DNA of 64,000 bases, taken from contig NZ_CP017688.1 in the NCBI RefSeq assembly GCF_001831475.1, positions 1,240,001 through 1,304,000 of the forward strand. The letters are read 5' to 3'. Under the pieces are notes generated by a model. It was not told where the DNA came from, ran no database searches, and worked only from the letters and a program-made list of their open reading frames with translations. The DNA comes from Flavobacterium crassostreae. Its GTDB lineage: Bacteria; Bacteroidota; Bacteroidia; Flavobacteriales; Flavobacteriaceae. The translations under genes and the position numbers were made by a program. Below, piece by piece: positions 32,185 through 56,866 of this stretch. Position 1 is the stretch's first letter. Every line of letters begins with the position of its first letter.

Positions 32185-32257
32185 AGCCCCGATAGTAGTG
32201 AAAATCCTTTTGTTTTTTTGTTTTTAAAAAAACAAAAGATTGTAGCGGATAGCGGGA
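32185..32257 (+). repeat. dispersed inverted-repeat element, copy A
   Basis: Left end AGCCCCGATAGTAGTG followed by AAAATCC, right end TGTAGCGGATAGCGGGA. Between them is an A/T hairpin (CTTTTGTTTTTTT with AAAAAAACAAAAG). The left end is more diverged than in copy B. It lies in the 371-bp gap between htpG and the lipoprotein gene, which otherwise holds only the htpG terminator. Confidence 0.8.
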
Positions 32258-32298
32258 GGGGATACAATGGTGGAAATTGGTGTTTGTGCTCCAAAAAA

Positions 32299-32330
32299 AA
32301 AGACCTGCAAGTTGGCACTCGCAGGTCTTT
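32299..32330 (-). terminator. htpG terminator
   Basis: AAAGACCTGC pairs with GCAGGTCTTT (12-nt loop). On the minus strand it runs into nine T. It lies 28 nt beyond the htpG stop. Confidence 0.85.
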
Positions 32331-32358
32331 AGGATTCTTTGTTTGTTTTGTAGTGGGG

Positions 32359-34248
32359 TTATTTTATCATTTCAAAACTACGTTTTACAAAAGCGGTTAG
32401 TGCTTCTCCTTTAAGTAGGTTTTGAGACAATTTGGCTAAGTCTAAGGCTTGTTTTACAAGGTGTTCTTGTGCTGCTTTATCTTCGGTTCCAAGGATGGTT
32501 GTTGCTAATGGCGAATTGGTATTTACCACTAGGTTGTACATCTCTGGCATGTTGCCCATCCCGAACATACCGCCACCGCCACCGGATTGGCTCATTTCTT
32601 TCATTCTACGCATAAATTCTGGTTGCGTGAGGATAAATGGTGCTGCTTGGCTGTCCATGGCTTCGAGTTGTACTGTATAGGTTTGTTTTGGAACAATGGT
32701 TTCTAAAACTGTTTTTAGTCCGGTTTGTTCTTCTTCGGATAATTTTGAAAGTGTAGTTTCGTCTTTCTTGATTAGGTTATCAATATGGTCTGAATCTACT
32801 CGTACAAAGGTGATGTCGCTGTTGTCTCCTTCAATTTTTTGAATCAAATGAGAGATAATTGGGGAGTCTAGCAACAATACTTTGTATCCTTTGGCTTGGG
32901 CGGTCTCAATGTATGCGTGTTGTGCTTCTTTGTTTCCGGCGTATAAAATAACCAGTTTGCCGTCTTTGTCGGTTTGGGTATCTTTTAGGTTTTCTTTTAA
33001 TTCTTCGAGGGTGAAGTAGTTGTTGTCTACCGTTGGGTATAAAACAAAGGCGCCTGCTTTTTCGTAGAATTTATCCTCGGATAGCATGCCGTATTCTAGA
33101 ACAATTTTGATATCGTTCCATTTTGCTTCAAAGTCGGCACGGTTTTCTGTAAATAACGATTTTAATTTATCTGCAACTTTACGGGTGATATAGTTCGAAA
33201 TTTTCTTCACAGCACCATCTGCTTGCAATCCAGAACGAGAAACGTTCAAAGGAATGTCTGGAGAGTCTACTACTCCGCGTAGCATCATCAAGAATTCGGG
33301 CACAATTCCTTCGACGTTATCGGTAACGTAAACTTGGTTTTGGTACAACTGAATTTTGTCTTTTTGAATTTGTAAATCGCCGCTTAATTTAGGGAAATAC
33401 AAAATACCAGTAAGGTTAAATGGGTAGTCCACATTTAAATGAATATGGAATAATGGTTCTTCAAATTGCATTGGATACAATTCGTGGTAGAAGGTTTTAT
33501 AGTCTTCTTCTTTTAAATCCGTAGGTTGTTTGGTCCAAGCTGGATTAGGGTTGTTGATAAAGTTGTCTTTTTCAACAGTTTGGTTTACATAGTCTTCGGG
33601 AGCATCTTCTGGTTTAGGAAGTGTTTCTGTTTTGGTTCCAAATTTAATTGGAATAGGCATGAATTTGTTGTACTTATTTAAGAGTCCTGAAATTTTAGAT
33701 TCTTCCAAAAATTCTAAGGAGTCTTCTGCAATGTGCAAGATGATTTCGGTACCGCGAGTTGTTTTGTCTGCTGGTTCCAAAGAAAATTCTGGGCTACCAT
33801 CACAAATCCAGTGTGCTGCAGGCTCGTCTTTGTAGGATTTGGTAATAATTTCGACCTTAGAGGCCACCATAAATGCCGAGTAAAAACCAAGACCAAAGTG
33901 GCCTATAATTCCAGAGTCTTTGGCAGAGTCTTTGTATTTTTCTAAAAACTCTTCGGCTCCAGAGAATGCCAGTTGGTTGATGTACTTTTCGACCTCATCG
34001 GATGTCATTCCAATTCCTTGGTCAATTAGGTGCAGCTTTTTGCCCTCTTTATCTATTTTTACCTCAATAATTGGGTTACCATATTCTACGGTGGCTTCGC
34101 CAATATTGGTAAGGTGTTTTAATTTTAATGTTGCATCTGTCCCGTTAGAAATTAATTCACGTAAAAAAATCTCGTGATCACTGTATAAGAACTTTTTGAT
34201 TAAAGGGAAGATGTTTTCTACTGAAACATTAATTTTTCCTGTTGTCAT
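32359..34248 (-). CDS. htpG: molecular chaperone HtpG (Hsp90 family)
   Basis: 629 residues, full length. The GHKL ATPase domain shows EIFLRELISNGTDATLKLKH (canonical NASDA is NGTDA here), LHLIDQGIGMTSDEVEKYIN and GHFGLGFYSAFMVA. The middle domain has YPMQFEEPLFHIHLNVDYPF, then LPLNVSRSxLQ-like IPLNVSRSGLQ. A C-terminal dimerisation domain follows, with a Met/Gly loop (SGGGGGMFGMGNMPEMYN). It is an ATP-driven cytosolic chaperone. It is monocistronic with a strong terminator. No clean -7 box was found upstream, which leaves open stress-type regulation. Confidence 0.95.
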   Translation of the reverse strand: MTTGKINVSVENIFPLIKKFLYSDHEIFLRELISNGTDATLKLKHLTNIGEATVEYGNPIIEVKIDKEGKKLHLIDQGIGMTSDEVEKYINQLAFSGAEEFLEKYKDSAKDSGIIGHFGLGFYSAFMVASKVEIITKSYKDEPAAHWICDGSPEFSLEPADKTTRGTEIILHIAEDSLEFLEESKISGLLNKYNKFMPIPIKFGTKTETLPKPEDAPEDYVNQTVEKDNFINNPNPAWTKQPTDLKEEDYKTFYHELYPMQFEEPLFHIHLNVDYPFNLTGILYFPKLSGDLQIQKDKIQLYQNQVYVTDNVEGIVPEFLMMLRGVVDSPDIPLNVSRSGLQADGAVKKISNYITRKVADKLKSLFTENRADFEAKWNDIKIVLEYGMLSEDKFYEKAGAFVLYPTVDNNYFTLEELKENLKDTQTDKDGKLVILYAGNKEAQHAYIETAQAKGYKVLLLDSPIISHLIQKIEGDNSDITFVRVDSDHIDNLIKKDETTLSKLSEEEQTGLKTVLETIVPKQTYTVQLEAMDSQAAPFILTQPEFMRRMKEMSQSGGGGGMFGMGNMPEMYNLVVNTNSPLATTILGTEDKAAQEHLVKQALDLAKLSQNLLKGEALTAFVKRSFEMIK

Positions 34249-34389
34249 ATTTAAAGTATTAGGGTTTTACAATCTGAAATCTCTACTTTCAAATAAGATA
34301 CCATTTGTGTGCAAAGTGACAAATTGGCGCAATGTTAATTTTGTAACAAAAATATAGAATAGCGATAGGATATTAAGAAACGGCTATTG

Positions 34390-34397
34390 TATATTTG
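34390..34397 (+). promoter_or_regulatory. -7 promoter box before the lipocalin-like gene
   Basis: TATATTTG, a full consensus match, 31 nt before ATG 34429. Confidence 0.6.
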
Positions 34398-34428
34398 TGG
34401 TAGTTTAACACAAAAAAACGAAATCAAA

Positions 34429-34899
34429 ATGAAAAAAATATTTTTTTTAAGCGTTATTGCCTTAGCACTTTTTTCTTGTAAACCAGCCTCTGTTGCCAAC
34501 ACGCAATTAAACAAAGGGTCTCAAGTGGGCTTAAAAGGTAGTTGGAGTATTGCAGCAGTAGAATACCCAGGGTCGGAGTATATTAAAGTAAATTCGTTTC
34601 AGATTGCAGACTCAAAGTGCTTTGTAGGAAGCACTTGGAAATTTATCTCGAACAACAATAAAGGCGAAATGGCTTTGAGTAGTTACGATTGTCCTGCATT
34701 TAGTTCTCCAATTACTTGGTATATTAACAAAGAGGGACAAATGATTTTAAAAATTTTGAACGCCGATGAAAAAGCCAAAAAAGTAAGAGATGGTTATATT
34801 TTGACTGTAGCAAACCAAACCGAAAATTCTTTTGAATTGGTAGACAAAATTAATGTTGGTGGAAAAATGACAGAAGTTATTTACAAATTTAGAAGATAA
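34429..34899 (+). CDS. lipocalin-family lipoprotein
   Basis: 156 residues from ATG 34429; a longer frame from 34387 would start ahead of the promoter. MKKIFFLSVIALALFSCKPA is a lipoprotein signal. The mature protein begins VGLKGSWSIAAVEYPGSEYI, with the Gly-x-Trp of lipocalins, then FVGSTWKFISNNNKG and alternating strands to the end (TEVIYKFRR). It is an envelope protein that may bind a hydrophobic ligand. It lies 52 nt upstream of the OmpA-family lipoprotein on the same strand, so they are probably one operon. Confidence 0.82.
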   Translation: MKKIFFLSVIALALFSCKPASVANTQLNKGSQVGLKGSWSIAAVEYPGSEYIKVNSFQIADSKCFVGSTWKFISNNNKGEMALSSYDCPAFSSPITWYINKEGQMILKILNADEKAKKVRDGYILTVANQTENSFELVDKINVGGKMTEVIYKFRR

Positions 34900-34951
34900 A
34901 AATTCAGAATACCGATTACATAAAACAATACAAAACAATAAAACAAAAATC

Positions 34952-35647
34952 ATGAAAAAAATTTCTACACTTTCTTTAGCTTTAATAATGGCAATGGGTA
35001 CGTTTTTTACAAGTTGCGATACGTTAAAGAATACCAATAACACACAAAGAGGTGCTGGTATAGGTGTTGCCGGAGGTGCTGTTTTAGGGGCAATTTTGGG
35101 TAACAATATTGGAAACGGTAATAACAGTGCTTTAGGAGCCGTTCTGGGCGGTGTTGTAGGTGGTGTTGCTGGAGGTGTTATTGGAAACAAAATGGACAAA
35201 CAAGCCAGACAAATTGACCAAGCCATACCGGGTGCTGAGGTAGAAAGAGTTGGAGAAGGGATCAAATTAGTTTTGAACGAAAATGCGGTACGTTTTGATA
35301 CGAGCAAATCTACTTTGACGCCAGCTGCAAAAGCAAATTTAGATAAATTAGTGCCTGTATTCAAAGAATATGCAGACACCAACATTACTATTTTTGGATA
35401 TACAGACAGTTCTGGTCCGGCAGAGTATAATTTAAAACTATCTGGTGAAAGAGCTGCTTCGGTAAGAAATTACCTAGTTGCAAAAGGATTGGTTTTAGGA
35501 AGATTTACTGTAACAGGATTAGGAATTGCAGATCCAATTGCATCTAACGAAACTGCAGAAGGAAAAGCAAAAAACCGTCGTGTTGAATTTGCGATCACTG
35601 CCAACGAAAAAATGTTGCAAGATGCGCAGCAAGAATCTAGTAACTAA
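34952..35647 (+). CDS. OmpA-family lipoprotein with glycine zipper
   Basis: 231 residues. The signal ends in the lipobox FFTSC. A glycine-zipper region follows (GAGIGVAGGAVLGAILGNNI, then GALGAVLGGVVGG-type repeats, about residues 32-75), which probably inserts in or lies on the membrane. The C-terminal OmpA domain has ITIFGYTDSSGPAEYNLKLS and ERAASVRNYLVAKG, with the peptidoglycan-binding Asp and Arg (NRRVEF). It tethers the outer membrane to the wall. It has the general form of a YiaD/Pal-like protein. Confidence 0.9.
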   Translation: MKKISTLSLALIMAMGTFFTSCDTLKNTNNTQRGAGIGVAGGAVLGAILGNNIGNGNNSALGAVLGGVVGGVAGGVIGNKMDKQARQIDQAIPGAEVERVGEGIKLVLNENAVRFDTSKSTLTPAAKANLDKLVPVFKEYADTNITIFGYTDSSGPAEYNLKLSGERAASVRNYLVAKGLVLGRFTVTGLGIADPIASNETAEGKAKNRRVEFAITANEKMLQDAQQESSN

Positions 35648-35674
35648 TATATTAGTCTAGTTTTTAGACGCTTT

Positions 35675-35708
35675 AAAAGCTGTTTTATTTTAGTATAAAA
35701 CAGCTTTT
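35675..35708 (+). terminator. terminator after the OmpA-family gene
   Basis: Perfect 14-bp stem (35675-35688 with 35695-35708, 6-nt loop) followed by a T run, 27 nt after the stop. Confidence 0.9.
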
Positions 35709-35756
35709 TTTTGTTTTAATTGTGATGCTTATTCTGGTAATTCCGACAAAGAAATC

Positions 35757-35764
35757 TATCTTTG
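35757..35764 (+). promoter_or_regulatory. -7 promoter box before the ABC ATPase gene
   Basis: TATCTTTG, a full consensus match, 24 nt before ATG 35789; it rules out the upstream in-frame start at 35762. Confidence 0.6.
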
Positions 35765-35788
35765 TACCCTCAAATTTATATTATAAAA

Positions 35789-36733
35789 ATGCTTCAAGTT
35801 AAAGATATCTCTTTTGGTTATAACGAAAAACCAGTGATAAAAAACATCCATTTTACGGTTGAAAAAGGACAGAATATTGCTGTGATAGGAGAGAGTGGTT
35901 GCGGAAAAAGTACGCTGCTAAAACTCATTTATGGCTTATACGATCTTGATGAAGGAGCCATTAGTTGGGGCGACAAAAAAGTAACTGGGCCTAAGTTTAA
36001 TTTGGTGCCAGGCATGCCCTTTATAAAATATCTTGCCCAAGATTTTGACTTGATGCCTTATACTACTGTTGCAGAAAATGTAGGTAAATTTTTGTCCAAT
36101 GGATTTAATGCTCTAAAAAAACTGCGCATTGAACAATTGTTAGAAATGGTGGAGATGACGGAGTTTGCTAATGTGCAGGCTAAAAATTTGAGCGGCGGGC
36201 AGCAACAGCGTGTGGCACTTGCTAGAGTGTTGGCCAATGAGCCCGAAGTTTTATTGCTGGATGAACCCTTTAGTCATATTGATAATTTTAGAAAAAATGC
36301 GTTGCGACGTAATTTGTTTGCATACCTAAAGACCAAAGGTATTACTTGTATTGTAGCCACGCACGATAGTACGGATGCGCTATCGTATGCCGATGAGACT
36401 ATTGTGTTGCAAAATGGGGTATTGGTAGACAAGGCAAATTCGTTTAGTTTGTACAACAATCCTATAAATAAATATGTGGCTTCGTTGTTTGGAGAGGTCA
36501 ATGAGCTTAAATTGTCTCAGTTAATGCCTATAGAGGGTCCGGACGAAACGGTTTTACTTTATCCTAACCAATTAAAGGTGGTCGATAATGGCTTGCTTAA
36601 TGCGGTGGTCAAACAATCGTATTTTAAGGGAGGTTATTATTTGATTAAGGCGGTGTTTGATCGGAAGGTTATTTTTTTTGAGCACGATAGCCCTTTGCAG
36701 AATAATACGGTGGTGTCTTTGATGATTTCTTGA
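35789..36733 (+). CDS. ABC transporter ATP-binding protein, orphan
   Basis: 314 residues. Walker A AVIGESGCGKSTLLKLIYGL, signature KNLSGGQQQRVALARVLANE, Walker B VLLLDEPFSHID and switch His CIVATHDSTDAL are complete. The C-terminal 80 residues form a TOBE/OB-like regulatory domain (LYPNQLKVVDNGLLNAVVKQ), as in ATPases of the sulfate, iron and polyamine importers (CysA/PotA/FbpC type). No permease or binding protein is adjacent, so the transported substrate is unknown. It is followed by inverted-repeat copy B. Confidence 0.88.
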   Translation: MLQVKDISFGYNEKPVIKNIHFTVEKGQNIAVIGESGCGKSTLLKLIYGLYDLDEGAISWGDKKVTGPKFNLVPGMPFIKYLAQDFDLMPYTTVAENVGKFLSNGFNALKKLRIEQLLEMVEMTEFANVQAKNLSGGQQQRVALARVLANEPEVLLLDEPFSHIDNFRKNALRRNLFAYLKTKGITCIVATHDSTDALSYADETIVLQNGVLVDKANSFSLYNNPINKYVASLFGEVNELKLSQLMPIEGPDETVLLYPNQLKVVDNGLLNAVVKQSYFKGGYYLIKAVFDRKVIFFEHDSPLQNNTVVSLMIS

Positions 36734-36750
36734 TATTTGTGCGGTGTTCT

Positions 36751-36839
36751 AGCCCCGATAGTAGCGGCATCCTTTTTGGGGTAGTTGTTTTGTGAATAAC
36801 AAAAACAACTACCCCAAAAAGATATAGCGGATAGCGGGA
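36751..36839 (+). repeat. dispersed inverted-repeat element, copy B
   Basis: The best-preserved copy. Left end AGCCCCGATAGTAGCGG then CATCC, right end ATATAGCGGATAGCGGGA. The centre is a perfect 20-bp inverted repeat (36772-36791 with 36802-36821, 10-nt loop), here beginning CTTTTTGGGG. It lies between the ABC ATPase and the fabH-like gene. Confidence 0.88.
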
Positions 36840-36917
36840 AACAGCTTCAAGAAGGGATTGTGGGTGCTGTTGCCAAAAAAAAACACCGTTTGTAAGGGAT
36901 TGTTTTTAAAGTATGTT

Positions 36918-36925
36918 TAAATTTG
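36918..36925 (+). promoter_or_regulatory. -7 promoter box before the fabH-like gene
   Basis: TAAATTTG, a full consensus match, 28 nt before the ATG at 36954. Confidence 0.5.
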
Positions 36926-36953
36926 GGATCTTATTTTAACTAAAAAAAATATA

Positions 36954-37961
36954 ATGTATCATTCTAAAATAGCTGGATTGGGGTATTACGTACCCTCGAA
37001 TGTGGTGACTAATGAGGATTTGTCCAAAATTATGGACACTAATGATGAGTGGATTCAGGAACGAACCGGAATTCAGGAACGAAGACATATTATAAGAGGG
37101 CAGGACACGACGACTTCGATGGGGGTCAAAGCAGCCAAAATTGCTATGGAACGCGCCGGAGTTGCTAAGGAGGCTATAGATTTTGTGGTTTTTGCTACGC
37201 TAAGCCCAGATTATTATTTTCCGGGACCTGGAGTTTTGGTACAACGGGATTTGGGTTTAAGAACGGTAGGGGCGCTGGATGTTAGAAACCAATGTTCGGG
37301 GTTTTTGTATGCCTTGTCTGTGGCGGACCAATATATTAAAACGGGTATGTACAAAAACATATTGGTGATTGGCTCGGAGGTGCATTCTACAGGTTTGGAT
37401 ATGACCTCTAGAGGCCGTGGGGTATCGGTGATTTTTGGAGATGGTGCAGGTGCAGCGGTGGTGAGTAGAGAAGAGGATTTGTCTAAAGGGATTCTTTCTA
37501 CCCATTTACACGCTGAGGGACAACATGCCGAAGAATTGGCACTTATAGCCCCAGGAATGGGTGCAAGATGGGTGACGGATATTCTTGCGGACAACGATCC
37601 CAATGACGAGAGTTATTTTCCGTACATGAATGGGCAATTTGTGTTCAAAAATGCAGTAGCTCGTTTTGCGGAGGTGATTCACGAAGGCTTGGAAGCCAAT
37701 GGTTTGCAGGTCTCGGATATTGATATGTTGGTTCCGCATCAAGCAAATTTGAGAATTTCGCAGTTTATCCAAAAGAAATTTGGTTTGCAGGATACCCAAG
37801 TGTTTAATAATATTCAAAAATACGGAAATACTACCGCAGCGTCCATCCCAATTGCGTTAACAGAAGCTTGGGAACAAGGCAAAATTAAATCTGGAGATAC
37901 GGTGGTTTTGGCTGCCTTTGGAAGTGGATTTACGTGGGCTAGTGCTATTATTAAATGGTAG
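36954..37961 (+). CDS. fabH: beta-ketoacyl-ACP synthase III (FabH family)
   Basis: 335 residues. The catalytic Cys114 is in DVRNQCSGFLYAL, the His in LVPHQANLRI, and the Asn in IQKYGNTTAASIPIAL: the full Cys-His-Asn triad. DTNDEWIQERTGIQERRHI is the family N-terminal block. It condenses an acyl-CoA starter with malonyl-ACP. It stands alone, not in the usual plsX-fabH pair, so it may be a paralogue with a special starter role; the main FabH may lie elsewhere. It has its own promoter and terminator. Confidence 0.88.
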   Translation: MYHSKIAGLGYYVPSNVVTNEDLSKIMDTNDEWIQERTGIQERRHIIRGQDTTTSMGVKAAKIAMERAGVAKEAIDFVVFATLSPDYYFPGPGVLVQRDLGLRTVGALDVRNQCSGFLYALSVADQYIKTGMYKNILVIGSEVHSTGLDMTSRGRGVSVIFGDGAGAAVVSREEDLSKGILSTHLHAEGQHAEELALIAPGMGARWVTDILADNDPNDESYFPYMNGQFVFKNAVARFAEVIHEGLEANGLQVSDIDMLVPHQANLRISQFIQKKFGLQDTQVFNNIQKYGNTTAASIPIALTEAWEQGKIKSGDTVVLAAFGSGFTWASAIIKW

Positions 37962-37999
37962 CATGGTTGCTAAACTAAACTAGTTGCTCTAAGTATATA

Positions 38000-38036
38000 A
38001 AAACCCGAAGTCTGTAAATTAAAGACTTCGGGTTTT
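38000..38036 (+). terminator. terminator after the fabH-like gene
   Basis: 14-bp stem AAAACCCGAAGTCT with AGACTTCGGGTTTT (9-nt loop), followed by T-rich sequence. Confidence 0.85.
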
Positions 38037-38044
38037 GTTTTGGT

Positions 38045-42577: not shown

Positions 42578-43279
42578 TTAGGAAACAAATTCACTTTCAA
42601 AAAGTGCTGCAAAATGTTTCAAGATGCTAGCTTTTACTTTGGCTTCATCTACTTTTTCGACACCTAGTTCTACATGTAAAGAAGTAACTGCTTTACCTCT
42701 AATTCCGCAAGGGATAATATGGTCAAAATAGCCCAAATCGGTGTTTACATTTAAGGCAAATCCGTGCATGGTGACCCAACGGGAGGCGCGTACGCCCATG
42801 GCGCATATTTTGCGGGCAAAGGGGGTGCCAACTCCTAACCATACGCCTGTTTCTCCTGGACTACGGCCACATTCTAAACCGTACTCTTGTAGGGTCAAAA
42901 TAATAGATTCTTCCAGAAAACGCAGGTATTTATGGATGTCTGTAAAAAAATTTTCAAGATCCAATATGGGATATCCCACAATTTGACCTGGACCATGGTA
43001 GGTGATGTCTCCACCGCGATTTATTTTATAAAAAGTAGCGCCTTTATCTGCCAATTGTTTTTCAGACAAAAGTAGGTTGCTAAAATCCCCACTCTTGCCC
43101 AGCGTGTAAACATGCGGATGGCTTACAAAAAGAAAGTAATTTGGGGTGGCTAACTCCAATTCTTCTCGTCGGTTTTGCATCTTTAAGGCTACAATGGCTT
43201 TGAACAATTCTTCTTGGTATTCCCAGGTTGTTTTGTAGTCTTTGGTTCCTAAATCTTGGAGTTGTATTTTGTTGTTCAT
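42578..43279 (-). CDS. lipB: lipoyl(octanoyl) transferase LipB
   Basis: 233 residues from ATG 43279 (a TTG 9 nt upstream is also in frame). It shows the family motifs: YTLGKSGDFSNLLL, the lysine- and glycine-rich FYKINRGGDITYHGPGQIVG, GVWLGVGTPFARKICAMGVR, and the catalytic Cys in HIIPCGIRGKAVTSLH. It transfers octanoate from ACP to lipoyl domains, the first step before LipA. lipA lies at 55780 on the same strand. A probable small frameshifted gene lies 25 nt upstream. Confidence 0.95.
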   Translation of the reverse strand: MNNKIQLQDLGTKDYKTTWEYQEELFKAIVALKMQNRREELELATPNYFLFVSHPHVYTLGKSGDFSNLLLSEKQLADKGATFYKINRGGDITYHGPGQIVGYPILDLENFFTDIHKYLRFLEESIILTLQEYGLECGRSPGETGVWLGVGTPFARKICAMGVRASRWVTMHGFALNVNTDLGYFDHIIPCGIRGKAVTSLHVELGVEKVDEAKVKASILKHFAALFESEFVS

Positions 43280-43304
43280 GTGGTTCAAATTCTGCTTTAA
43301 AGCT

Positions 43305-43509
43305 TTAATGCCTATTCTCGGAAAGATTTTCTAGAGGAATGCTTTTCACAAAACGCTTTCGGTCTTGGGCTATTCCTCTGGCATCGATACGGTTTTTGTT
43401 TTTTTGTAAAAGGATAGGCAATAGAATAGGTGGATTTGTTTGAAAAATCACCTAACTTTTTTAAAAATTCATCTTCGGGATCTTCTTGTTTTTTTGGGCA
43501 AAGATACAA
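43305..43509 (-). pseudogene. small basic-tailed protein gene with apparent frameshift, upstream of lipB
   Basis: One frame encodes a polar stretch (PEDEFLKKLGDFSNKSTYSI, then AYPFTK) and another frame continues with KNRIDARGIAQDRKRFVKSI then PLENLSENRH and a TAA at 43305-43307. The two join at a run of seven A on the minus strand (43399-43405): removing one A would give a single reading frame of about 67 codons ending 25 nt before lipB. The start is unclear: a TTG at 43509 lies inside a TATCTTTG box. It could be a decayed gene, a sequencing error or slippage at the A run. Family not recognised. Confidence 0.4.
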
Positions 43510-43572
43510 ACTCTATACGGAATTGCTAAACTCTTGGGGATACTTAATTCTAGATACGAGGTATTGTAAACT

Positions 43573-43634
43573 AGCCCCGATTGGAAGCGGTATCCCACGC
43601 CTTTTTTTGGGCGTGGATAAAGCGGAAAGCGGGA
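43573..43634 (+). repeat. dispersed inverted-repeat element, copy C
   Basis: Left end AGCCCCGATTGGAAGCGG then TATCC, right end ATAAAGCGGAAAGCGGGA. The central hairpin is short and G+C-rich: CCACGCC (43595-43601) with GGCGTGG (43610-43616). It lies 133 nt upstream of lysS, in the 488-bp gap between lipB and lysS. Confidence 0.82.
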
Positions 43635-43714
43635 CAGAATTGGATAAGGTGTGCGGACTTAATGCTCCAGAATCTGCGCTGGCTTGGGTTGCTATTTTAG
43701 CAGAGGCTGTTTTT

Positions 43715-43745
43715 TTGTTATTTTAACACATAAAGACTATCTTTG
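43715..43745 (+). promoter_or_regulatory. lysS promoter
   Basis: TTG at 43715-43717, a 20-bp spacer and TATCTTTG at 43738-43745, 22 nt before the lysS ATG. Confidence 0.7.
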
Positions 43746-43767
43746 TGCTCTTAAAAATCAGAGTAAA

Positions 43768-45471
43768 ATGGCATTATCCGAACAAGAAATTATCCGTAGA
43801 GAAAAACTACAAAACTTACGAAACTTAGGGATTAACCCGTATCCTGCTAATCTTTTTGCTGTAGATCATACTTCCAAACAAATAAAGGAAAGCTTTGAAG
43901 AGGGCAAGAAGGTTGTTGTGGCTGGGCGTTTGATGAGTGTTAGAGACCAAGGTAAGGCCTGTTTTGCGGAACTGCAAGATAGCGAGGGACGTATTCAGTT
44001 GTACGTGAATCGGGATGTATTGTGTGTTGGAGAGGATAAAACGCTTTATAATCAGGTTTTTAAAAAATTAACGGATCTAGGGGATTTTATTGGTATTGAA
44101 GGAGAATTGTTTACCACCAAGGTAGGCGCTCAGTGTATTAGGGTGGATGGGTTTACTTTTTTGAGTAAAACGTTACGTCCGTTGCCGTTGCCAAAAGTGG
44201 ACGAGGATGGAAAGGTACATGATGCTTTTAACGATGCCGAATTGCGTTATAGAATGCGCTACGTAGATTTGACGGTGAACCAAAACGTAAAGCAAACGTT
44301 TGTTAAAAGAACAAAATTGTTCAACGCCATGCGTGGTTTTTTTAACGATGCTGGATATCTTGAGGTCGAAACGCCTATTTTGCAATCCATTCCGGGTGGT
44401 GCAGCGGCGCGTCCGTTTATTACGCATCATAACTCTCTTGATATGCCGTTGTATATGCGTATAGCAAATGAGTTATATTTAAAAAGATTAATCGTAGGTG
44501 GATTTGATGGGGTGTATGAGTTTTCTAAAAATTTCCGTAACGAGGGAATGGATAGAACACACAATCCAGAATTTACTGCCATGGAAATATATGTAGCCTA
44601 CAAGGACTACAACTGGATGATGGAGTTTACGGAGAACTTACTGGAACATTGCGCCATTGGTGTAAATGGTACTAGTGAAGCTACTTTTGGAGAACACAAA
44701 ATCAACTTTAAAGCACCTTATGCTCGTGTGACCATGACGGATTCTATCCAGCATTTTACTGGTTTTGATATTTCTGGCAAAACCGAAGCAGAACTTTTTG
44801 AAGCTGCCAAAGCAATGGGAATTGAAGTAGATGCTACCATGGGGAAAGGGAAATTGATTGACGAAATTTTTGGCGCTAAATGCGAAGGAAATTATATTCA
44901 GCCTACATTTATCACGGACTATCCAAAGGAGATGTCTCCGCTTTGTAAAGAGCACCGGGATAATCCGGAATTAACGGAGCGTTTTGAATTAATGGTTTGT
45001 GGTAAAGAAGTAGCAAATGCTTATTCGGAACTAAATGACCCTATTGATCAAAGAGCTCGTTTTGAGGATCAAATGCGTTTGGCTGAAAAAGGGGATGACG
45101 AGGCCTCTGGAATTATTGATGAAGATTTTTTGAGAGCACTAGAATATGGTATGCCACCAACCTCTGGATTAGGGATTGGAATGGATCGTTTGATGATGTT
45201 TTTGACTAATAATGCTTCGATTCAAGAAGTATTGTTTTTTCCTCAAATGAGACCAGAGAAAAAACAAATCACGGTAGAGCTTGAAGCAGACGAGAAAACA
45301 ATTGTAGCCATTCTAGAGGCCAATGACAACCAAATGGAGTTTGGATTGCTCAAAATAAAATCCGAATTAAGCGGTAAAAAATGGGATAAAGCCATGAAAA
45401 ACCTTTCGGCACTTGGAATGACCGAAGTAGTTGTTGCAGATAATGGCAAGGCATGTAGATTGAAAGGCTAA
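43768..45471 (+). CDS. lysS: lysine--tRNA ligase, class II
   Basis: 567 residues from ATG 43768 (MALSEQEIIRREKLQNLRNL); a longer frame from 43684 would precede the promoter. The OB-fold anticodon domain (VVVAGRLMSVRDQGKACFAE) is followed by class II motifs: motif 1 in YLEVETPILQSIPGGAAARP, motif 2 in EFSKNFRNEGMDRTHNPEFT and motif 3 in SGLGIGMDRLMMFLTNNASI. A C-terminal extension of about 65 residues after motif 3 is found in Bacteroidetes LysS. It charges tRNA-Lys. A terminator follows. Confidence 0.96.
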   Translation: MALSEQEIIRREKLQNLRNLGINPYPANLFAVDHTSKQIKESFEEGKKVVVAGRLMSVRDQGKACFAELQDSEGRIQLYVNRDVLCVGEDKTLYNQVFKKLTDLGDFIGIEGELFTTKVGAQCIRVDGFTFLSKTLRPLPLPKVDEDGKVHDAFNDAELRYRMRYVDLTVNQNVKQTFVKRTKLFNAMRGFFNDAGYLEVETPILQSIPGGAAARPFITHHNSLDMPLYMRIANELYLKRLIVGGFDGVYEFSKNFRNEGMDRTHNPEFTAMEIYVAYKDYNWMMEFTENLLEHCAIGVNGTSEATFGEHKINFKAPYARVTMTDSIQHFTGFDISGKTEAELFEAAKAMGIEVDATMGKGKLIDEIFGAKCEGNYIQPTFITDYPKEMSPLCKEHRDNPELTERFELMVCGKEVANAYSELNDPIDQRARFEDQMRLAEKGDDEASGIIDEDFLRALEYGMPPTSGLGIGMDRLMMFLTNNASIQEVLFFPQMRPEKKQITVELEADEKTIVAILEANDNQMEFGLLKIKSELSGKKWDKAMKNLSALGMTEVVVADNGKACRLKG

Positions 45472-45507
45472 ACCATAATTGCTAAACACTAGCGTTATAA
45501 ATAAAAA

Positions 45508-45540
45508 CAAACCCGACAGCTGTATACGCTGTCGGGTTTG
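45508..45540. terminator. terminator between lysS and the 597-residue gene
   Basis: 13-bp perfect stem CAAACCCGACAGC with GCTGTCGGGTTTG (7-nt loop) and seven T on the plus strand. It lies just beyond the stop of the convergent minus-strand gene as well. Confidence 0.88.
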
Positions 45541-45545
45541 TTTTT

Positions 45546-47339
45546 TTAGACTAATTCAGGAATTGAAATAGTTAGTAACTCTTGTTTGTATAGGGGTAAT
45601 AATTGGGTTTCGGTATTTGCAAATGGGGCATCAGTAAAGAGTGTTTCGTAGTAGTTAATTCCGTCTAAAAGATTGTTCTTGAAAGAGTTCCATTTTTTAA
45701 TTTGCCCTGCGTTGATTGTTTCGGATACGGTTTGAATTTCGTTTTTTAAATAATCCAGGTACATTTTGAGTTCTTTAACAAACATATTGGGGCGGTTTGT
45801 ATTGGTTACAACATTCGCATTTCCGTAAATGTGTTGCACCATTTGTGTCAAAGAAACTTCTTGGTCAAAATAAGCCATGTTAGGCCCCGGACAAATAACA
45901 ACTCCTTGTTCTTGTCCTTTGATTTGTATGTCGTTTTCAAGATAGATGGCATTGGCTAAACCAACACAAAGACAGGATTTGTCTGTGATTTTATTTTTGG
46001 CGTTAGTATACATGGCGTCGCTTAAATTGGCTTTGTTATCTGCTAACTCTTGGAGTTTTATATCTTGGTATTTTTTGGAGGCGGTACAAATTCCTTCGGG
46101 GCCTAATTCTTTACTCAGAGCCAAAAACTTTTTGGGACAAGAGCTTCCTGCTTTGTTTTCTTGAATTCGTTTTTGTTTTAAGGCTTCGTTTGTGGTTCCT
46201 TTTAGGGTATTGAACGGAATTCCTAAAGGAGAAATAGGGCTGAGGTACAAATCTTCTTCGTTAGCTTTGGCTAGTAATTCGCGGGTATGGGGATCCACGG
46301 AGGTTGCTTCTGGAACCAATAAAAATGGAGAGCCCCAGCCAATAGAGTCTACTTGGTAATGAGAGAGCAAAAAGTCGTGTTCTGCGGCGGTTCCTACCCC
46401 TCCTTGAACGGTGATTTTTAATTCTAGTGGATTCTCTGGAACGGGTTTGCCTTTGGTAGTTAGGGCTTTTACCATTAGTTCGTGTGCGGAGGCTATTAAT
46501 TGTTCTTTTTTGGCTTTAAATTCTTCTAGAATAGGTCCTAGCAAATGCCCTTCGGTGGCAAAGGCATGTCCTCCGCAATTTAATCCCGACTCAATCCGGT
46601 ATTCAGAAACCCAAAGCCCTTTTTTGGCCAAAAAATTGCCTTGTATCATCGCAGATCTAAAGTCGCTCACTTTAAGGATTATTTTTTTGCTTAATTGGTT
46701 GTTGTTGTCCGGAAAAAAAACATCAAAATTCTCAAAATAACTGTACAATCTGGGGTTCATGCCTGCCGAAAGAACCACAGAGGAGGTCAAAGTACTGTTG
46801 GCAAAGCCACGTAATGAGGCGTGGGCATCATTGAATTCTGTAGGTAATTGCTCGTTTTTGTTAAAGTTGTCTTTATCTACCTTGGTCATGATGTTAACAT
46901 CAATTGCTCCAGTGGTAAGGTGGTTGTCTATATAGTTTTTGAGCGCTTCTTTGCCTTCTTCAAGCTTGCCTTGTAGACCTTGTTTGACGGCAGATTTATT
47001 AGGTAACATGGCAATATAGTTTTCTAAGACAATTTTGCTTTCGGTTAACTCGGTTTTAAAAGCTTCAAATTTTTGCTTTACAATAGTGTCTACTAAATTA
47101 AGATACGAAGTGACCCGTTCTGCACGATAATCTTGCATTTTTTGGGTAATTTCGTGGTACGGAAGATGAAATTTAGAACTATAAAAAGCACTCATTTTTT
47201 CTATTAAATCATCATCAATAATAGAAATTACTGAAGAAATCCCATATTTAGCCACTCTAATCGGACTGTCAATGGTGTAAGCGAGTCCCATCACCGGAAT
47301 GTGAAAGGTATGTACTGGTTTAGTAATGGTCATAGACAT
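45546..47339 (-). CDS. large conserved hypothetical protein, possible TIM-barrel enzyme
   Basis: 597 residues, soluble, no signal or membrane helix. The start HIPVMGLAYTIDSPIRVAKY, then GISSVISIIDDDLIEKM, recalls the first strand and helix of nitronate-monooxygenase-type FMN barrels. ITVQGGVGTAAEHDFLLSHY and VDSIGWGSPFLLVPEATSVD look like later barrel strands with a phosphate-binding GG. Between them lies a helical insertion (about 60-190). Cysteines at 255, 401, 418, 456, 458 and 483 could bind a metal or cluster. I know no characterised homologue; the barrel assignment is inference. It is monocistronic. Confidence 0.7.
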   Translation of the reverse strand: MSMTITKPVHTFHIPVMGLAYTIDSPIRVAKYGISSVISIIDDDLIEKMSAFYSSKFHLPYHEITQKMQDYRAERVTSYLNLVDTIVKQKFEAFKTELTESKIVLENYIAMLPNKSAVKQGLQGKLEEGKEALKNYIDNHLTTGAIDVNIMTKVDKDNFNKNEQLPTEFNDAHASLRGFANSTLTSSVVLSAGMNPRLYSYFENFDVFFPDNNNQLSKKIILKVSDFRSAMIQGNFLAKKGLWVSEYRIESGLNCGGHAFATEGHLLGPILEEFKAKKEQLIASAHELMVKALTTKGKPVPENPLELKITVQGGVGTAAEHDFLLSHYQVDSIGWGSPFLLVPEATSVDPHTRELLAKANEEDLYLSPISPLGIPFNTLKGTTNEALKQKRIQENKAGSSCPKKFLALSKELGPEGICTASKKYQDIKLQELADNKANLSDAMYTNAKNKITDKSCLCVGLANAIYLENDIQIKGQEQGVVICPGPNMAYFDQEVSLTQMVQHIYGNANVVTNTNRPNMFVKELKMYLDYLKNEIQTVSETINAGQIKKWNSFKNNLLDGINYYETLFTDAPFANTETQLLPLYKQELLTISIPELV

Positions 47340-50166: not shown

Positions 50167-50169
50167 ATT

Positions 50170-51325: not shown

Positions 51326-51333
51326 TACTTTCG
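51326..51333 (+). promoter_or_regulatory. -7-like promoter box immediately before lpxK
   Basis: TACTTTCG matches TAnnTTTG except one base and ends 4 nt before the lpxK ATG, the same geometry as at rluF. Confidence 0.45.
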
Positions 51334-51337
51334 TGAA

Positions 51338-52366: not shown

Positions 52367-52559
52367 ATGCCAAATGGATAATGCGGTATTTGTTATTATA
52401 AACAGAGTAGTTTTTTAAAAAAAGATAGCCTAATTTGGGTAATACATACTTGCGCCACGATCAAACGTTTTTCGCTGTTTTTGAGATTGCAGAATGCATC
52501 AAGTTTTAAACACGAGAGACTATTTCGGTTAGAGGTGTTTTTAAATAAAGGACCCCGTA

Positions 52560-54728
52560 TTAAGAGAGATTTTGCAAAATAATGCTATAAAAATCTTCGG
52601 GAGTAAATGGTTTGGTAACCACATCATTCATCCCAAAAGAAAGCAGCATTTCTCTATTTTCGTCTAGAGATATTGCCGTAACAGCAATAATCGGGGTGAT
52701 GGTATTGAATTTTCGGATTTCCTTGGTGGCAACAGTGCCATTAATCCCTGGCAAATGCACATCCATGAGTACCAAATCATAGGCATGACGTTTTAGGTGT
52801 TCCATGGCCTCCTCGCCGTTATCAATTATCACTGAATGAACCCCTTTGTTTTTGAGCATTGTTTTGGTGATCATTTGGTTGATTTTGTTGTCTTCCACAA
52901 TGAGAATTTTTTTATTTTGTAAAGCACTATAATCCGTTGCTTTGGTTTGTTGGGTACTATAATTTTTGTTTTCTTCAATATCCAATTCCAAATCAAACGA
53001 AAAGGCAGATCCTGTCCCTAGGGTGCTTTTTAAATGCATTTTTCCGCCCAAAATAGTCACTAGTTTTTTTACAATGGTCAACCCCAGGCCTGTGCCGCCA
53101 TACTTTCGGTTTATTTCTGTGGATCCTTGCGTGAAACTCTCAAATACGGTTTCTAGTTTGTTTTCCGGAATTCCTATTCCGGTGTCTGTTATCACAAAAG
53201 ATAAAAAAGCTTTTTGCGGACTCAATTGTTTTACTTTGGCAGTAACAAACACCTCTCCATCTTGGGTAAATTTGAGTGCATTGTTTATTAAATTCATGAA
53301 TATTTGCGAAATTTTCATCGGATCTCCTCTCAAAATTTCTGGAATTTCTGGATCCATACTAAGCGCAAAGTGGTTGTTGTTTTTTTGGGCCAACTCTTTC
53401 AAAGAGTTTTGAATATCTTCGAGGAGTTTTTTGAGATTAAAACTAATGTTTTCCACTTCGGTTTTATTGGCCTCAATTTTGTTTATTTCTAATATTTCGT
53501 TGATAAATGTGGCTAAATAGTTTGCAGAAAATTTCAGAGAAGAAAGATAGTGCAGTTGGGATTTTTTAGGATTTTCTTCTAACAACAAATGCGTTAATCC
53601 ATTAATGGCATTCAAGGGAGTGCGCAATTCATGGCTTACTGTAGAGAGAAATTCAGATCGGGCCTCGGAGGCTTTTTCTATTTTTTCTTTGGCAAGGAGC
53701 AGCTCGTTATTTTTTTCTTTGAGCAACAAGTTGGATTTGTTTCGGATGATATTATTTTTGTACAAAGACAGGCTTAACAAAGACAAGATAGCAATCAAGG
53801 CTACTGCTAATATATTGATGAGTTTAGAGAATTTACTAGTTCTTTCTTTCTCAGCATTTTGTTTGTTTAATTGTGCCACGCTTTTTAGGCGTTGTTCTTT
53901 TTTAAAATTTTCATAATCATCGATTTCTAATTTTTGATTGTTTAAAATTTCAAAATTTTCTTTTAGATTTAAGTAGAGTTTCAAATACGCAAAAGCCTTG
54001 TTTTTTTCGAGCATTCTTTCGTGAATAGTACTCAGGGCTAACAGTATGTTGAGGCGTTGTTCTAAATTTTGACCACTACTATTTAACTCATAGGCTTTCT
54101 TGAAATAGCTTAGGGCAAAATTAAATCGTTTGTTGGCCGCCTCAATGAGACCCATTTGGTAGTAGGCTTCGGTTTTGGTTTCCAAGTTTTTGGAGGTAGT
54201 AGGCTCAGAAATTACGGTGTTAAAAAAAACAGTGCTTTTTTCGAGAGCTCCTTTTGCTTTATAAATAATTGCTTGCTGCAGCGTAATGGCACGATTATAA
54301 GTAGTTATATTTAGTTTTTTGGCAATAGATAAGCTTTTTTTAAAGCAGGTTTCTGCAACATCATAATTTTGTTGCTTCATTTTGACCAACCCTAAATAAT
54401 AATAGACGATGGAGTAGGTGCTTGAGATGGGTAGGTTTTTGAACAAATAAATACTTTGATTAAAAAAATCGGCTGCATCGTTGTTTTTTTTTAAATCATA
54501 ATATATTTTGCCTAATTGAAATATTTGTACCGCTTTGTGGTAAGAATCTTGTTTGGACTCGCTATAATTAATTGCTTTTTGGGTATAATCAATCGCATTT
54601 TTGTAATGGTTTTTTGCAATGCTAGATTGCGCTAAACCTGTATAAAAAGAGAGGCTATCTAAGGGCTCTTTTTTTTGTGCATGCATCAAGATGCTGAAAA
54701 ACAGGATAAAAGCCCAAAAATAATTCAT
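52560..54728 (-). CDS. hybrid sensor histidine kinase with periplasmic TPR domain
   Basis: 722 residues. A signal peptide (1-17) and about six TPR-type repeats (20-290) are followed by one transmembrane helix (303-324), a coiled-coil linker, HisKA with phospho-acceptor His366 (FLSTVSHELRTPLNAINGL), HATPase (NLINNALKFTQDGE, DTGIGIPENKL, GGTGLGLTIVKKL) and a receiver with Asp656 (LVLMDVHLPGING). The TPR region should face the periplasm and sense a protein or peptide. It ends in a receiver and no DNA-binding regulator is adjacent. It is 6 nt downstream of gap. Confidence 0.93.
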   Translation of the reverse strand: MNYFWAFILFFSILMHAQKKEPLDSLSFYTGLAQSSIAKNHYKNAIDYTQKAINYSESKQDSYHKAVQIFQLGKIYYDLKKNNDAADFFNQSIYLFKNLPISSTYSIVYYYLGLVKMKQQNYDVAETCFKKSLSIAKKLNITTYNRAITLQQAIIYKAKGALEKSTVFFNTVISEPTTSKNLETKTEAYYQMGLIEAANKRFNFALSYFKKAYELNSSGQNLEQRLNILLALSTIHERMLEKNKAFAYLKLYLNLKENFEILNNQKLEIDDYENFKKEQRLKSVAQLNKQNAEKERTSKFSKLINILAVALIAILSLLSLSLYKNNIIRNKSNLLLKEKNNELLLAKEKIEKASEARSEFLSTVSHELRTPLNAINGLTHLLLEENPKKSQLHYLSSLKFSANYLATFINEILEINKIEANKTEVENISFNLKKLLEDIQNSLKELAQKNNNHFALSMDPEIPEILRGDPMKISQIFMNLINNALKFTQDGEVFVTAKVKQLSPQKAFLSFVITDTGIGIPENKLETVFESFTQGSTEINRKYGGTGLGLTIVKKLVTILGGKMHLKSTLGTGSAFSFDLELDIEENKNYSTQQTKATDYSALQNKKILIVEDNKINQMITKTMLKNKGVHSVIIDNGEEAMEHLKRHAYDLVLMDVHLPGINGTVATKEIRKFNTITPIIAVTAISLDENREMLLSFGMNDVVTKPFTPEDFYSIILQNLS

Positions 54729-54734
54729 AGTACT

Positions 54735-55733
54735 CTATTTTGTCCTGGTTAACAGAATTAAGTCAATTAGTCGGGAACAATAACCAATTTCGTTATCGTA
54801 CCAACCCACTACTTTAACCATTTTGTCAATTACAGAGGTTAGTTGGGCATCAAAAACACAAGAATTTTTATTACCTATAATATCTACAGAAACAATAGGA
54901 TCTTCGGTATAGTCCAAAATTCCTTTTAGACTAGTTTGCGAAGCGTTTTTAAAAGCAGCGTTAATCTCGGCAATAGTTACCGCCCGTTTTACATTAAAAG
55001 TAATGTCCGTAAGAGAACCATCGGGCACTGGCACTCGTATGCCACAGCCACCAATTTTGCCGTCTAAATCTGGAAAAATTTTGGTCAATGCCTTAGCAGC
55101 TCCAGTGGTTGTTGGCACAATAGATTGGCTCGCACCACGCGCTCTACGTAAGTCTTTATGCGGTTGGTCATGCAAACTTTGGTCCGTAGTGTAGGAGTGA
55201 ATAGTAGTGATGTAGGCTTGTTCAATACCGCAGAGTTCTTGTATTATCTTAATCATCGGAGCCGCATTGTTGGTAGTACAGCTCGCATTAGAAAGAATGG
55301 TTTCTGAACCGTCCAAAATAGCGTCATTAACCCCCAATACAACCGTTTTGATAGCATCTGTTTCAGAGGGAGCAGATAAAATCACTTTTTTTGCTCCAGC
55401 AATAAGGTGGTTGCGGAGCGCCTCATGGGTTTTATGCTTGCCAGTTGCTTCAATAACATAGTCAATACGGAGTTTTTTCCAGTCTAGATCCAGAATATTC
55501 TTTTCGTGCAAAAAAACAAAATGCTGCTCCTCAATACAAAACCCTTGCGAGTCCGTGTGTACCGTATGCGGCAAAACCCCATGTATGCTATCGTATTTTA
55601 ATAAATGTGCCATGGTTTTGGTATCCGCAATATCATTTATGGCAACAACTTCTATGGTGGGATGGTTCAATAAAAGACGAAATAAATTTCGACCAATTCT
55701 TCCAAAGCCATTTATGGCAACTCTTGTTTTCAA
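54735..55733 (-). CDS. gap: glyceraldehyde-3-phosphate dehydrogenase, type I
   Basis: 332 residues. The NAD-binding start VAINGFGRIGRNLFRLL and AINDIAD-x-binding Asp, the catalytic Cys in LSNASCTTNNAAPMIK, the His in TTIHSYTTDQSLHDQPH, and the sugar-phosphate Thr/Arg (PTTTGAAKAL, RVPVPDGSLTDI) are all present. It is the NAD-dependent glycolytic type by the Asp in the fold. Its genomic place between lipA (46 nt) and the kinase gene (6 nt) is not the usual glycolytic operon, so it may be a second gap gene. Confidence 0.93.
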   Translation of the reverse strand: MKTRVAINGFGRIGRNLFRLLLNHPTIEVVAINDIADTKTMAHLLKYDSIHGVLPHTVHTDSQGFCIEEQHFVFLHEKNILDLDWKKLRIDYVIEATGKHKTHEALRNHLIAGAKKVILSAPSETDAIKTVVLGVNDAILDGSETILSNASCTTNNAAPMIKIIQELCGIEQAYITTIHSYTTDQSLHDQPHKDLRRARGASQSIVPTTTGAAKALTKIFPDLDGKIGGCGIRVPVPDGSLTDITFNVKRAVTIAEINAAFKNASQTSLKGILDYTEDPIVSVDIIGNKNSCVFDAQLTSVIDKMVKVVGWYDNEIGYCSRLIDLILLTRTK

Positions 55734-55779
55734 TTTTTTAAAATTAATCAGTTATTTGGATTAAATAGGGATGCTTATT

Positions 55780-56688
55780 TTATAAAATATGTTTTTGTGC
55801 TTTGTACGAAGAGCGCACAAGCGGTCCGCTTTCCACGTGTCTAAAACCTAACTCCAATCCAAATTTTTCGTAAATAGCAAATTGTTCTGGAGTTATAAAC
55901 TCTTTAACGGGCAAATGTTTTTTACTTGGTTGTAAGTATTGGCCTATAGTCACAACATCCACATTAGCCTCACGCAGGTCTCTCAAGGTCTGAAAAACCT
56001 CTTCCTCAAGCTCTCCCAACCCCAACATAATTCCGGATTTAGTACGGCGGATGCCTTTTTCTTTCAAATAACGCAATACCTCCAAACTACGGTCGTATTT
56101 AGCCTGAATACGCACTTCTCTAGTAAGCCTTCTAACCGTTTCCACATTATGAGAAACCACCTCTGGATTGGCCTGCACAATACGATCAATATTTCTTTCA
56201 ATTCCTTGAAAATCAGGTATTAAAGTCTCCAAGGTAGTAGTAGGGTTCATTCTACGGATGGCTTTTACGGTTTCAATCCATATAATAGACCCACCATCTT
56301 TTAAATCATCCCTATCCACGCTCGTAATTACAGCATGTTTAATGTTCATTATTTTGATAGAACGAGCCACTTTTTCTGGTTCATCCCATTCCACCGTCTC
56401 AGGTCTTCCTGTTTTCACCCCGCAAAACCCGCAAGAACGAGTACACGTATTTCCTAAAATCATAAAAGTAGCCGTTCCTTCGCCCCAGCATTCGCCCATA
56501 TTGGGGCAACTCCCCGAAGTACAAATGGTATTTAAGCTATATTTGTCCACAAGACCTCTGAGTTCCGTATATTTTTTTCCGATAGGCAACTTTACCTTCA
56601 ACCATTTTGGTTTGGTTATTGTTTTTTCCGTTTGATCCGCTGTTGCCACGGCTAAATTATTTTCTAAAACAGTTTTCATAAAATTCAT
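55780..56688 (-). CDS. lipA: lipoyl synthase LipA
   Basis: 302 residues (ATG 56688; ATG 56679 is also possible). The auxiliary Fe-S cluster Cys motif [13 protein letters not shown] and the radical-SAM motif CTRSCGFC are intact, with the LipA Arg-Ser-Ser end [26 protein letters not shown] and [15 protein letters not shown] are typical. It inserts sulfur at C6 and C8 of octanoyl-lipoyl domains, after LipB. A consensus promoter lies directly upstream, and gap and the kinase follow on the same strand. Confidence 0.96.
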
Positions 56689-56699
56689 TTTTCAATATA

Positions 56700-56707
56700 C
56701 AAAGATA
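56700..56707 (-). promoter_or_regulatory. -7 promoter box before lipA
   Basis: TATCTTTG on the minus strand, full consensus, 11 nt before ATG 56688, with a TTG 22 nt further upstream. Confidence 0.65.
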
Positions 56708-56779
56708 CATAATGTGTACCTAAAACACACAATTTGACCCGCCAAGGTTTCAGATAGTTTTTTGTTTTTAGGAGCAATT

Positions 56780-56866
56780 TCCAGCTATCCGCTCTATCTT
56801 TTATACCCCAAAACCGCTCTTTACAGCGGTTTTGGGGCACAAAAGGATGCCGCTACTATCTGGGCT
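56780..56866 (-). repeat. dispersed inverted-repeat element, copy D (reversed)
   Basis: Read on the minus strand: left end AGCCCAGATAGTAGCGG then CATCC, right end AGAGCGGATAGCTGGA. The central inverted repeat is 13 bp, CCCCAAAACCGCT (56806-56818) with AGCGGTTTTGGGG (56825-56837). It lies between lipA and tonB, 74 nt from the tonB stop. Confidence 0.85.

Follow-up and report, generated by a model that had tools for sequence, protein, structure and literature searches.

Flavo-1 (Rfam RF01705) was catalogued by Weinberg et al. in 2010 (PMC2864571) as a candidate RNA, with no function stated in the part of that paper available. Rfam labels the family "Gene; sRNA"; the available part of PMC9029176 lists it with no function given, and that of PMC9723704 reports no real clue to its function. 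For the STAXI motif, the accessible text of PMC2864571 raises structured single-stranded DNA and prefers RNA; Flavo-1 is like STAXI in this possible reading, and unlike it in that STAXI is a repeated pseudoknot near DNA-handling genes. Here we describe Flavo-1 in Flavobacterium crassostreae, beginning with a stretch of 64,000 nucleotides (contig NZ_CP017688.1, positions 1,240,001 to 1,304,000; the window), and a strand-polar composition footprint that surrounds nearly every copy. Other described systems share features with these copies. REP sequences are likewise many intergenic imperfect palindromes, and Y1 (HUH) enzymes act on folded single-stranded DNA. In integron attC sites the bulges and ends are conserved and the self-complementary stem varies, a layout that recurs in Flavo-1; these sites function through a folded single strand. 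In mitochondrial strand-displacement replication, with its OriL stem-loop, the long-exposed strand accumulates A-to-G and C-to-T changes; a fall of A and C with a rise of G and T on one strand is the classical mark of time spent single-stranded, as in animal mitochondria.

Flavo-1 copies and the composition of their flanks

The original prediction, made from the letters of the window, described four inverted-repeat copies with conserved ends and an individual hairpin in each. All four are present, and an Rfam scan identified every one as Flavo-1 (50.6, 66.2, 75.4, and 76.3 bits), above the gathering score, the curated cut-off, of 42 bits. They are intergenic by simple open reading frame (ORF) calls, and each extends on its 3' side past the end first given, as far as a conserved GCTCC or GCTTC. 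The copies, in window coordinates and with the subtypes described below, are as follows.

32184..32292, plus strand: Flavo-1 copy A, type 1 with a long 3' tail; RF01705 75.4 bits; 3' extension to GCTCC placed by eye, sequence checked; downstream of and antisense to an htpG-like gene (32359-34248, minus strand)
36750..36848, plus strand: Flavo-1 copy B, type 1 with a long core; RF01705 76.3 bits; AGC/GCT outer pairing in the DNA fold
43572..43668, plus strand: Flavo-1 copy C, type 1 with a short core and a long 3' tail; RF01705 50.6 bits
56771..56867, minus strand: Flavo-1 copy D, type 1; RF01705 66.2 bits

The argS gene places the genome (one contig of 3,027,315 bases) within Flavobacterium, its best-matching named loci being 86% identical. 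The genome contains 103 Flavo-1 matches at E<=1e-3, 98 of which exceed the gathering score, so that the family is dispersed far above the threshold of about ten copies set in the original prediction. The figure of 103 is a lower bound: model R1 recovered a further strong copy (L355:2870-3026, genome ~202870-203026, E 5.6e-11) that is absent from the Rfam-based list, together with a second, weaker match (L355:4679-4746).

Read on the strand that carries the element, the sequence around the copies is enriched in G and T. In 300- or 600-base flanks, with the 60 bases next to the element left out, G exceeded C at 99 of the 103 copies, with three negative and one tied, and at 90 of the 93 non-redundant copies that remained once the rRNA-linked copies and four of five array copies were removed; with each flank taken alone, the count was 89 of 93. 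The skew is maximal close to the element, extends farther in the 3' direction and has almost returned to background at 2.5-3 kb (beyond 1.5 kb the profile comes from fewer loci), the footprint thus fading over about 3 kb to either side. The four window copies have GC skews of.15-.30, with the sign inverted at the reversed copy D, where T>A does not follow.

30000..34000 (approximate), plus strand: strand-polar region of copy A, G>C and T>A; GC skew.232 and TA skew.267 in the 60-660 base flanks; extent from a 1-kb profile
35000..38000 (approximate), plus strand: strand-polar region of copy B, G>C; GC skew.296; genes also on the plus strand, adding to the skew
43000..46000 (approximate), plus strand: strand-polar region of copy C, G>C; GC skew.171
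56000..57000, minus strand: strand-polar region of copy D, C>G on the plus strand with a GC skew of -.25 there; element-strand GC skew.153, TA skew -.052

At 165 intergenic control sites, the mean |GC skew| was.084 versus.171 at 97 copies (Mann–Whitney U, 4e-17), and G>C was not accompanied by T>A; the control consists of 20 stretches of 20 kb chosen for having no listed copy, one of which (L355) contains the missed copy and the weaker match. At third codon positions within 1 kb, the element-strand A/C/G/T frequencies were.260/.126/.227/.387 in same-strand genes (control.358/.165/.134/.344) and.217/.105/.303/.375 in opposite genes (control.344/.134/.165/.358). This strong shift in genes of both directions supports a mutational reading.

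Three simple causes were rejected. Transcription fails because the footprint is seen in every gene arrangement, with G>C at 28/28 copies in the same direction as their genes, 38/40 opposite, 9/9 convergent, 14/15 divergent, and 1/1 unplaced. Replication strand fails because the presumed leading strand carries only 41 of 97 copies (dnaA at base 169; terminus assumed opposite), and because 20 stretches of 20 kb (L354-L373) reveal no plain two-replichore GC skew, the sign changing along the chromosome despite this position of dnaA. Nor does one signal word dominate: broad G/T-rich words are enriched, and no single short word accounts for the skew.

Orientation, folding and the RNA question

Among the 101 of 103 copies that could be placed, 31 lie with a codirectional gene pair, 40 against one, 14 between convergent, and 16 between divergent genes; placement used simple ORF calls, and the ORFs adjoining rRNA-linked copies are possibly spurious. 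The fixed orientation downstream of genes that marks a terminator or an mRNA 3' element is not found. Flavo-1 is indifferent to transcription direction and is probably not an element of neighbouring transcripts. The earlier proposal of a structured RNA end of mRNAs is therefore not supported, while the statement that these are no ordinary terminators is, by the same indifference of orientation.

According to the available part of PMC9723704, several 5' transcribed regions of F. psychrophilum coincide with Flavo-1 matches; the same source has the matches indistinctly sense or antisense, with many outside transcribed regions. These observations bear on the possibility that Flavo-1 is a structured RNA, either a small RNA with its own transcription or an element carried within transcripts, in line with its Rfam listing as sRNA. 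Beside that listing and the coinciding 5' regions, strong covariation speaks for it. However, the lack of a preferred sense, the matches outside transcribed regions, the orientation indifferent to genes and the small number of wobble pairs argue against it, and an RNA leaves a footprint upstream as well as downstream unexplained. We consider it decidedly unlikely.

The pairing was examined in an alignment of 85 own copies in 78 loci, fitted to the structure with a model built from 15 of them. Standard pairs occupied 98.3% of 1,800 cells versus 68.9% in shuffles, and changes on both sides were found in 21 of 22 pairs. When the partner was slid by one to three columns, pairing fell to 41-48%. 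The covariance model suggested in the original prediction thus shows the frame pairing kept with changes on both arms, and the consensus pairing with compensatory changes that characterizes RF01705 is present. The combination of conserved ends with an individual self-complementary core also holds beyond the window, over the 85 copies. A second count, based on anchors and not fitted to the structure, covered 97 own copies and 95 copies of G062, the nearest relative found by htpG (96%; 81 genomes compared); copies that did not match the type-1 anchors were set aside. Two variable frame positions were Watson-Crick in 62/64 and 60/64 own type-1 copies and in 59/64 and 55/64 G062 copies, with G.T at 1 and 0 (own) and 1 and 1 (G062). 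Wobble pairs are usually clearly commoner in RNA helices; the 45 G.U cells among the 1,800 therefore lean to DNA, as read against this general norm for RNA and without a control. The hairpin part is the same as RF01705 in sequence and structure, yet that family was described as a candidate RNA, whereas the copies here behave as a DNA element. The strand footprint suggests that Flavo-1 works as DNA rather than as part of an mRNA.

A simple motif split of 97 copies gave 67 of type 1 and 30 of type 2. In 38 of 46 type-2 copies from the own genome and G062, the five bases before AGGGAT have their exact complement downstream of the AGCCCGAC-hairpin, compared with a mean of 11.7 and a maximum of 20 in shuffles; some anchors in this count were wrong, at least one of the 38 is false and several misses appear paired by eye. 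Thirteen different true arm sequences occur. These complementary outer arms make type 2 a three-way junction; neither its outer stem (P1) nor its second hairpin (P3) is part of the Rfam model. Type 1 ends in AGC on the left and GCTCC or GCTTC on the right, which could form a three-pair P1, a pairing that appears in the DNA fold of copy B only. By eye, the htpG-adjacent copies L235, L236, L240, L242, L258, L260, L239, and L257 have 3' tails in which GCTCC is preceded by a common stretch resembling GTTCTTATG; this may be another conserved part of type 1. The type-2 outer stem and second hairpin, the type-1 3' extension and the strand footprint go beyond the Rfam model and the available part of PMC2864571. 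Against dinucleotide shuffles, DNA folding gave z -3.3 for copy A, z -7.0 for copy B, and z -4.9 for copy D; the fold of copy C was no better than shuffles (z -1.4; 17/200 shuffles fold equally well).

Conserved loops with a variable self-complementary stem, together with strand polarity, would also suit an integron attC-like site, where a recombinase acts on a folded strand. Flavo-1 differs in forming no cassette arrays, its copies being dispersed single intergenic sites (no recombinase search was made), and we regard this explanation as highly improbable.

Shared sites, core turnover and distribution

We compared the 97 own copies (six rRNA-linked copies excluded) with the flanks of 95 of the 117 G062 copies. 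The flanks of 49 own copies aligned in the same orientation, and a spacing test on these 49 pairs found 28 collinear by both flanks, 20 by one flank and 1 that fails. About half of the copies (48/97) therefore have a collinear, same-orientation counterpart at a fixed site in G062; as the remaining 49 own copies were not looked up in G062, this is not a full split into shared and unshared. Beside htpG, 9 of 30 fetched species (own and 8 of 29 others) carry a copy with the same position and orientation, and among these nine copies a core is common to two species only. The search for empty sites that the original prediction had proposed was run at this locus and found it copy-less in 21 of the 30, so that Flavo-1 presence varies over time. 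Unshared insertions and empty sites are what a recent transposon or miniature inverted-repeat transposable element would show; the empty htpG loci stand here beside the 48 of 97 copies common to G062, which do not support recent mobility. The earlier description of a mobile or shuffling hairpin unit thus stands in one part: recent mobility finds no support, while core turnover is real, as the two sharing copies among the nine at htpG illustrate.

Cores could be parsed in 47 of the 49 pairs, with an identity of at least.75 in 25, of.55-.75 in 16 and below.55 in 6; shuffled core pairs average.62, an effect of the many simple A/T hairpins among the cores. The 17 core pairs of equal length and with an identity of at least.6 contain 14 differing base pairs, of which 11 have changed on both arms and 3 are broken. 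What had been called a different hairpin in every copy is, judging from these sequences, a constant frame around a core that either changes on both arms together or gives way to another core. The copy at 2,914,646 has a core like that of the rRNA-linked copies, and its G062 counterpart has a different one. By eye, the copies at 1276747 (copy B of the window) and 1909831 have a common inner core and outer arms that differ on both sides yet pair. Also by eye, some cores in genomes of other families (L435, L448, and L441 in G028; L431 and L440 in G025) contain what may be other repeated palindromes, resembling GACAGGCTCAGCCTGA and TCACTGAGCGGAG, which would make the core a kind of landing pad.

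Flavo-1 matched in 26 of 40 genomes, our own included, with per-genome counts within the genus from 0 to at least 88; other counts are at least 117 in G062, 111 in G013, 81 in G051, and 59 in G010. Under stricter filters, at least 60 of 149 genomes of the class (own included) match and at least 37 do so over the cut-off. Fourteen control genomes gave zero matches.

Copy numbers from 0 to more than 100 within the genus and the existence of copy-less sites would fit a REP/RAYT-like mobile hairpin, whose copies are spread by a Y1 transposase handling single-stranded DNA. One Y1 gene is present in the own genome, and the action of such enzymes on folded strands would fit the footprint. However, the number of Y1 matches is no guide to the number of Flavo-1 copies: G004, with at least 88 copies, has no Y1 match, and three Y1 matches occur in G030, which has no copy. 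Matches at E<=1e-3 were absent from the copy-bearing G004, G011, G012, G016, and G025, where a lost or very divergent Y1 is possible. A Y1 gene accompanying the repeats was thus not found, and the partner search named in the original prediction returned no partner transposase; a RAYT partner was rejected on the mismatch of counts. In the own genome, no copies flank the transposase, the Y1 gene (232488-232718) having no Rfam-listed copy within 20 kb and its nearest listed copies at 180830 and 254584. Flavo-1 further differs from REP/RAYT systems in that its cores are not common among copies and in its many fixed shared sites (48/97 with G062). We judge this origin quite unlikely. The Y1 gene region (L093:1423-1989, genome ~232410-232980), the sole Y1 match of the genome, lies between two near-identical ORF pairs. 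The available part of PMC12306157 tabulates REP-type counts for two Flavobacterium species.

Six own copies share near-identical repeats of ~1.5 kb. In the two tested (L065, 2596800-2599900; L067, 1479700-1482800), the copy lies ~700 bases upstream of the 16S rRNA gene and points away from it, so that rRNA operon ends were the wrong site for the six. Five identical or near-identical copies lie between 1,606,816 and 1,621,626, and they share flanks in a tandem array of related stretches (L042, genome 1605300-1625000). Plasmids gave no Flavo-1 match, one Streptococcus phage gave two weak partial matches, and among viral contigs eight stretches carry one exact Flavo-1 pattern and none carry the other; on these results, residence of the copies on mobile DNA was rejected. 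The window also contains two tRNA genes (24843-24916 and 25065-25138) with equal Rfam scores, 150 bases apart.

The footprint in relatives and its possible cause

In relatives, the footprint was assessed with a gene-strand-balanced measure at third codon positions (GC3; 0-750 bp, zero expected without an effect, bootstrap intervals). The effect was +.396 (.369-.432) for the 97 own copies, +.258 (.204-.304) for the best 30 of 59 copies of G010, +.238 (.182-.294) for 9 of 111 of G013, +.161 (.124-.204) for 95 of 117 of G062, +.140 (.012-.210) for 12 of 81 of G051, and +.138 (.073-.227) for 24 copies pooled from eight more genomes. It declines with distance in every set but the eight-genome pool, which stays level to 1,500 bp. 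The interval was above zero in two of three genomes of other families, one of them G028 at +.064 (.016-.116; 12 copies). The raw skew was evident at 24 of 30 copies in G010; whole-gene skew compared with 80 named loci was mixed, and is confounded by coding skew and lost synteny. At the near end of htpG, the third-position keto skew was.189 in the eight other species with a copy versus.084 in the 21 without (p=.0007), and the third-position TA value (TA3) was also higher with a copy (p=.0001).

Alignments between the own genome and G062 around the 49 pairs (101,716 sites, unpolarised by an outgroup and including one mis-paired copy) showed asymmetric transitions on the element strand, A-to-G 4343 versus 1988 and C-to-T 2784 versus 1888. 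Around the shared elements, the A, C, G, and T fractions were.271,.169,.230, and.330 in the own genome and.311,.178,.190, and.321 in G062. The two genomes share the elements yet differ in composition, which indicates that the skew differs between lineages. Loss of Endonuclease V was uninformative as a reason for the stronger own footprint, no match being found in the own genome or in 11 of 13 relatives.

From the observed footprint we infer a mechanism. The reading that we tentatively favour, giving it a little less than an even chance, is that Flavo-1 is an oriented DNA site that folds on one strand, which recurrently becomes single-stranded nearby. The element strand would fold into a hairpin whose internal loops are conserved and whose core can be replaced, type 2 adding the outer stem and the second hairpin. 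A protein may recognize the folded strand and, for example, nick, unwind or gap the opposite strand, whereby the element strand would be exposed locally and recurrently around the site. Lesions in the exposed strand would then become substitutions on that strand only, mainly A to G and C to T. The same skew sign on both sides fits poorly with two-ended resection of a double-strand break, which exposes opposite strands, and better with a gap or bubble that has the element at its centre. The likeness to the mitochondrial OriL system lies in A-to-G and C-to-T on the exposed strand, whereas Flavo-1 differs in its ~100 local centres, the same sign on both sides and no replication link seen. Among the three readings offered in the original prediction, the protein-binding DNA hairpin comes nearest and is compatible with this one; no protein was identified.

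The alternative to mutation is selection or placement, in which G/T on the element strand around the sites is favoured by a protein or by a system that folds the chromosome, or elements persist only where one strand was G/T-rich beforehand. The net changes all drain A and feed G, transversions included and so beyond the two transitions, and the enriched words are broadly G/T-rich, as such a process would have it. On the other hand, the own genome and G062 share elements but differ in skew, so that a prior property of the sites is insufficient; the shift is greatest at third codon positions, and no single word dominates. We consider selection or placement unlikely.

Several points weigh against the single-strand reading. 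Transversions are asymmetric too (A-to-T 2479 versus 1253, T-to-G 2445 versus 1246, C-to-G 1067 versus 602, A-to-C 1157 versus 684), so deamination alone is not the whole story, and the comparison with G062 from which these counts come lacks outgroup polarity. Of the other-family genomes, G036 gave +.262 (.096-.281) from 7 copies with few same-strand codons and no fall with distance, and the interval of G025 spans zero (+.057, -.055 to.151; 11 copies). The raw skew was not evident at 11 matches in named loci (one of them, L178, weak and coding-like) or in 30 copies of ten genomes (15 positive), and was weak in G062 (18/30 copies). At htpG, the GC3 contrast with versus without a copy was borderline (p=.053), far-end TA3 differed as well (p=.012) and the near-minus-far difference was not significant (p=.11); these statistics ignore species relatedness. 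In the own genome, core length and subtype had no association with the skew. Finally, both the partner protein and the single-stranded DNA of this mechanism are putative.

The family is known, and its strand footprint appears to be new as far as the literature was searched: no such footprint was found among the matches listed for repeats and palindromes in Flavobacterium, for hairpins in connection with local GC skew, or for strand asymmetry at inverted repeats, most subscription journals lying outside the scope. A wider claim, which we find possible but somewhat unlikely, is that Flavo-1 is a class of chromosomal DNA sites and not RNA, folding on one strand (in type 2 as a three-way junction), where dedicated machinery would time and again expose one particular strand as single-stranded DNA for 2-3 kb to either side. 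If so, these genomes would carry tens to more than 100 fixed, oriented single-strand centres, each with a strand-asymmetric substitution footprint. Under the single-strand reading, ~100 small DNA elements would set the local mutation spectra, independently of gene direction and with no dependence on replication strand seen; under selection, the copies would be a natural example of composition being shaped around defined sites. For an element catalogued without a function since 2010, a kilobase-scale strand-polar footprint at nearly every copy is a strong clue that can be measured.

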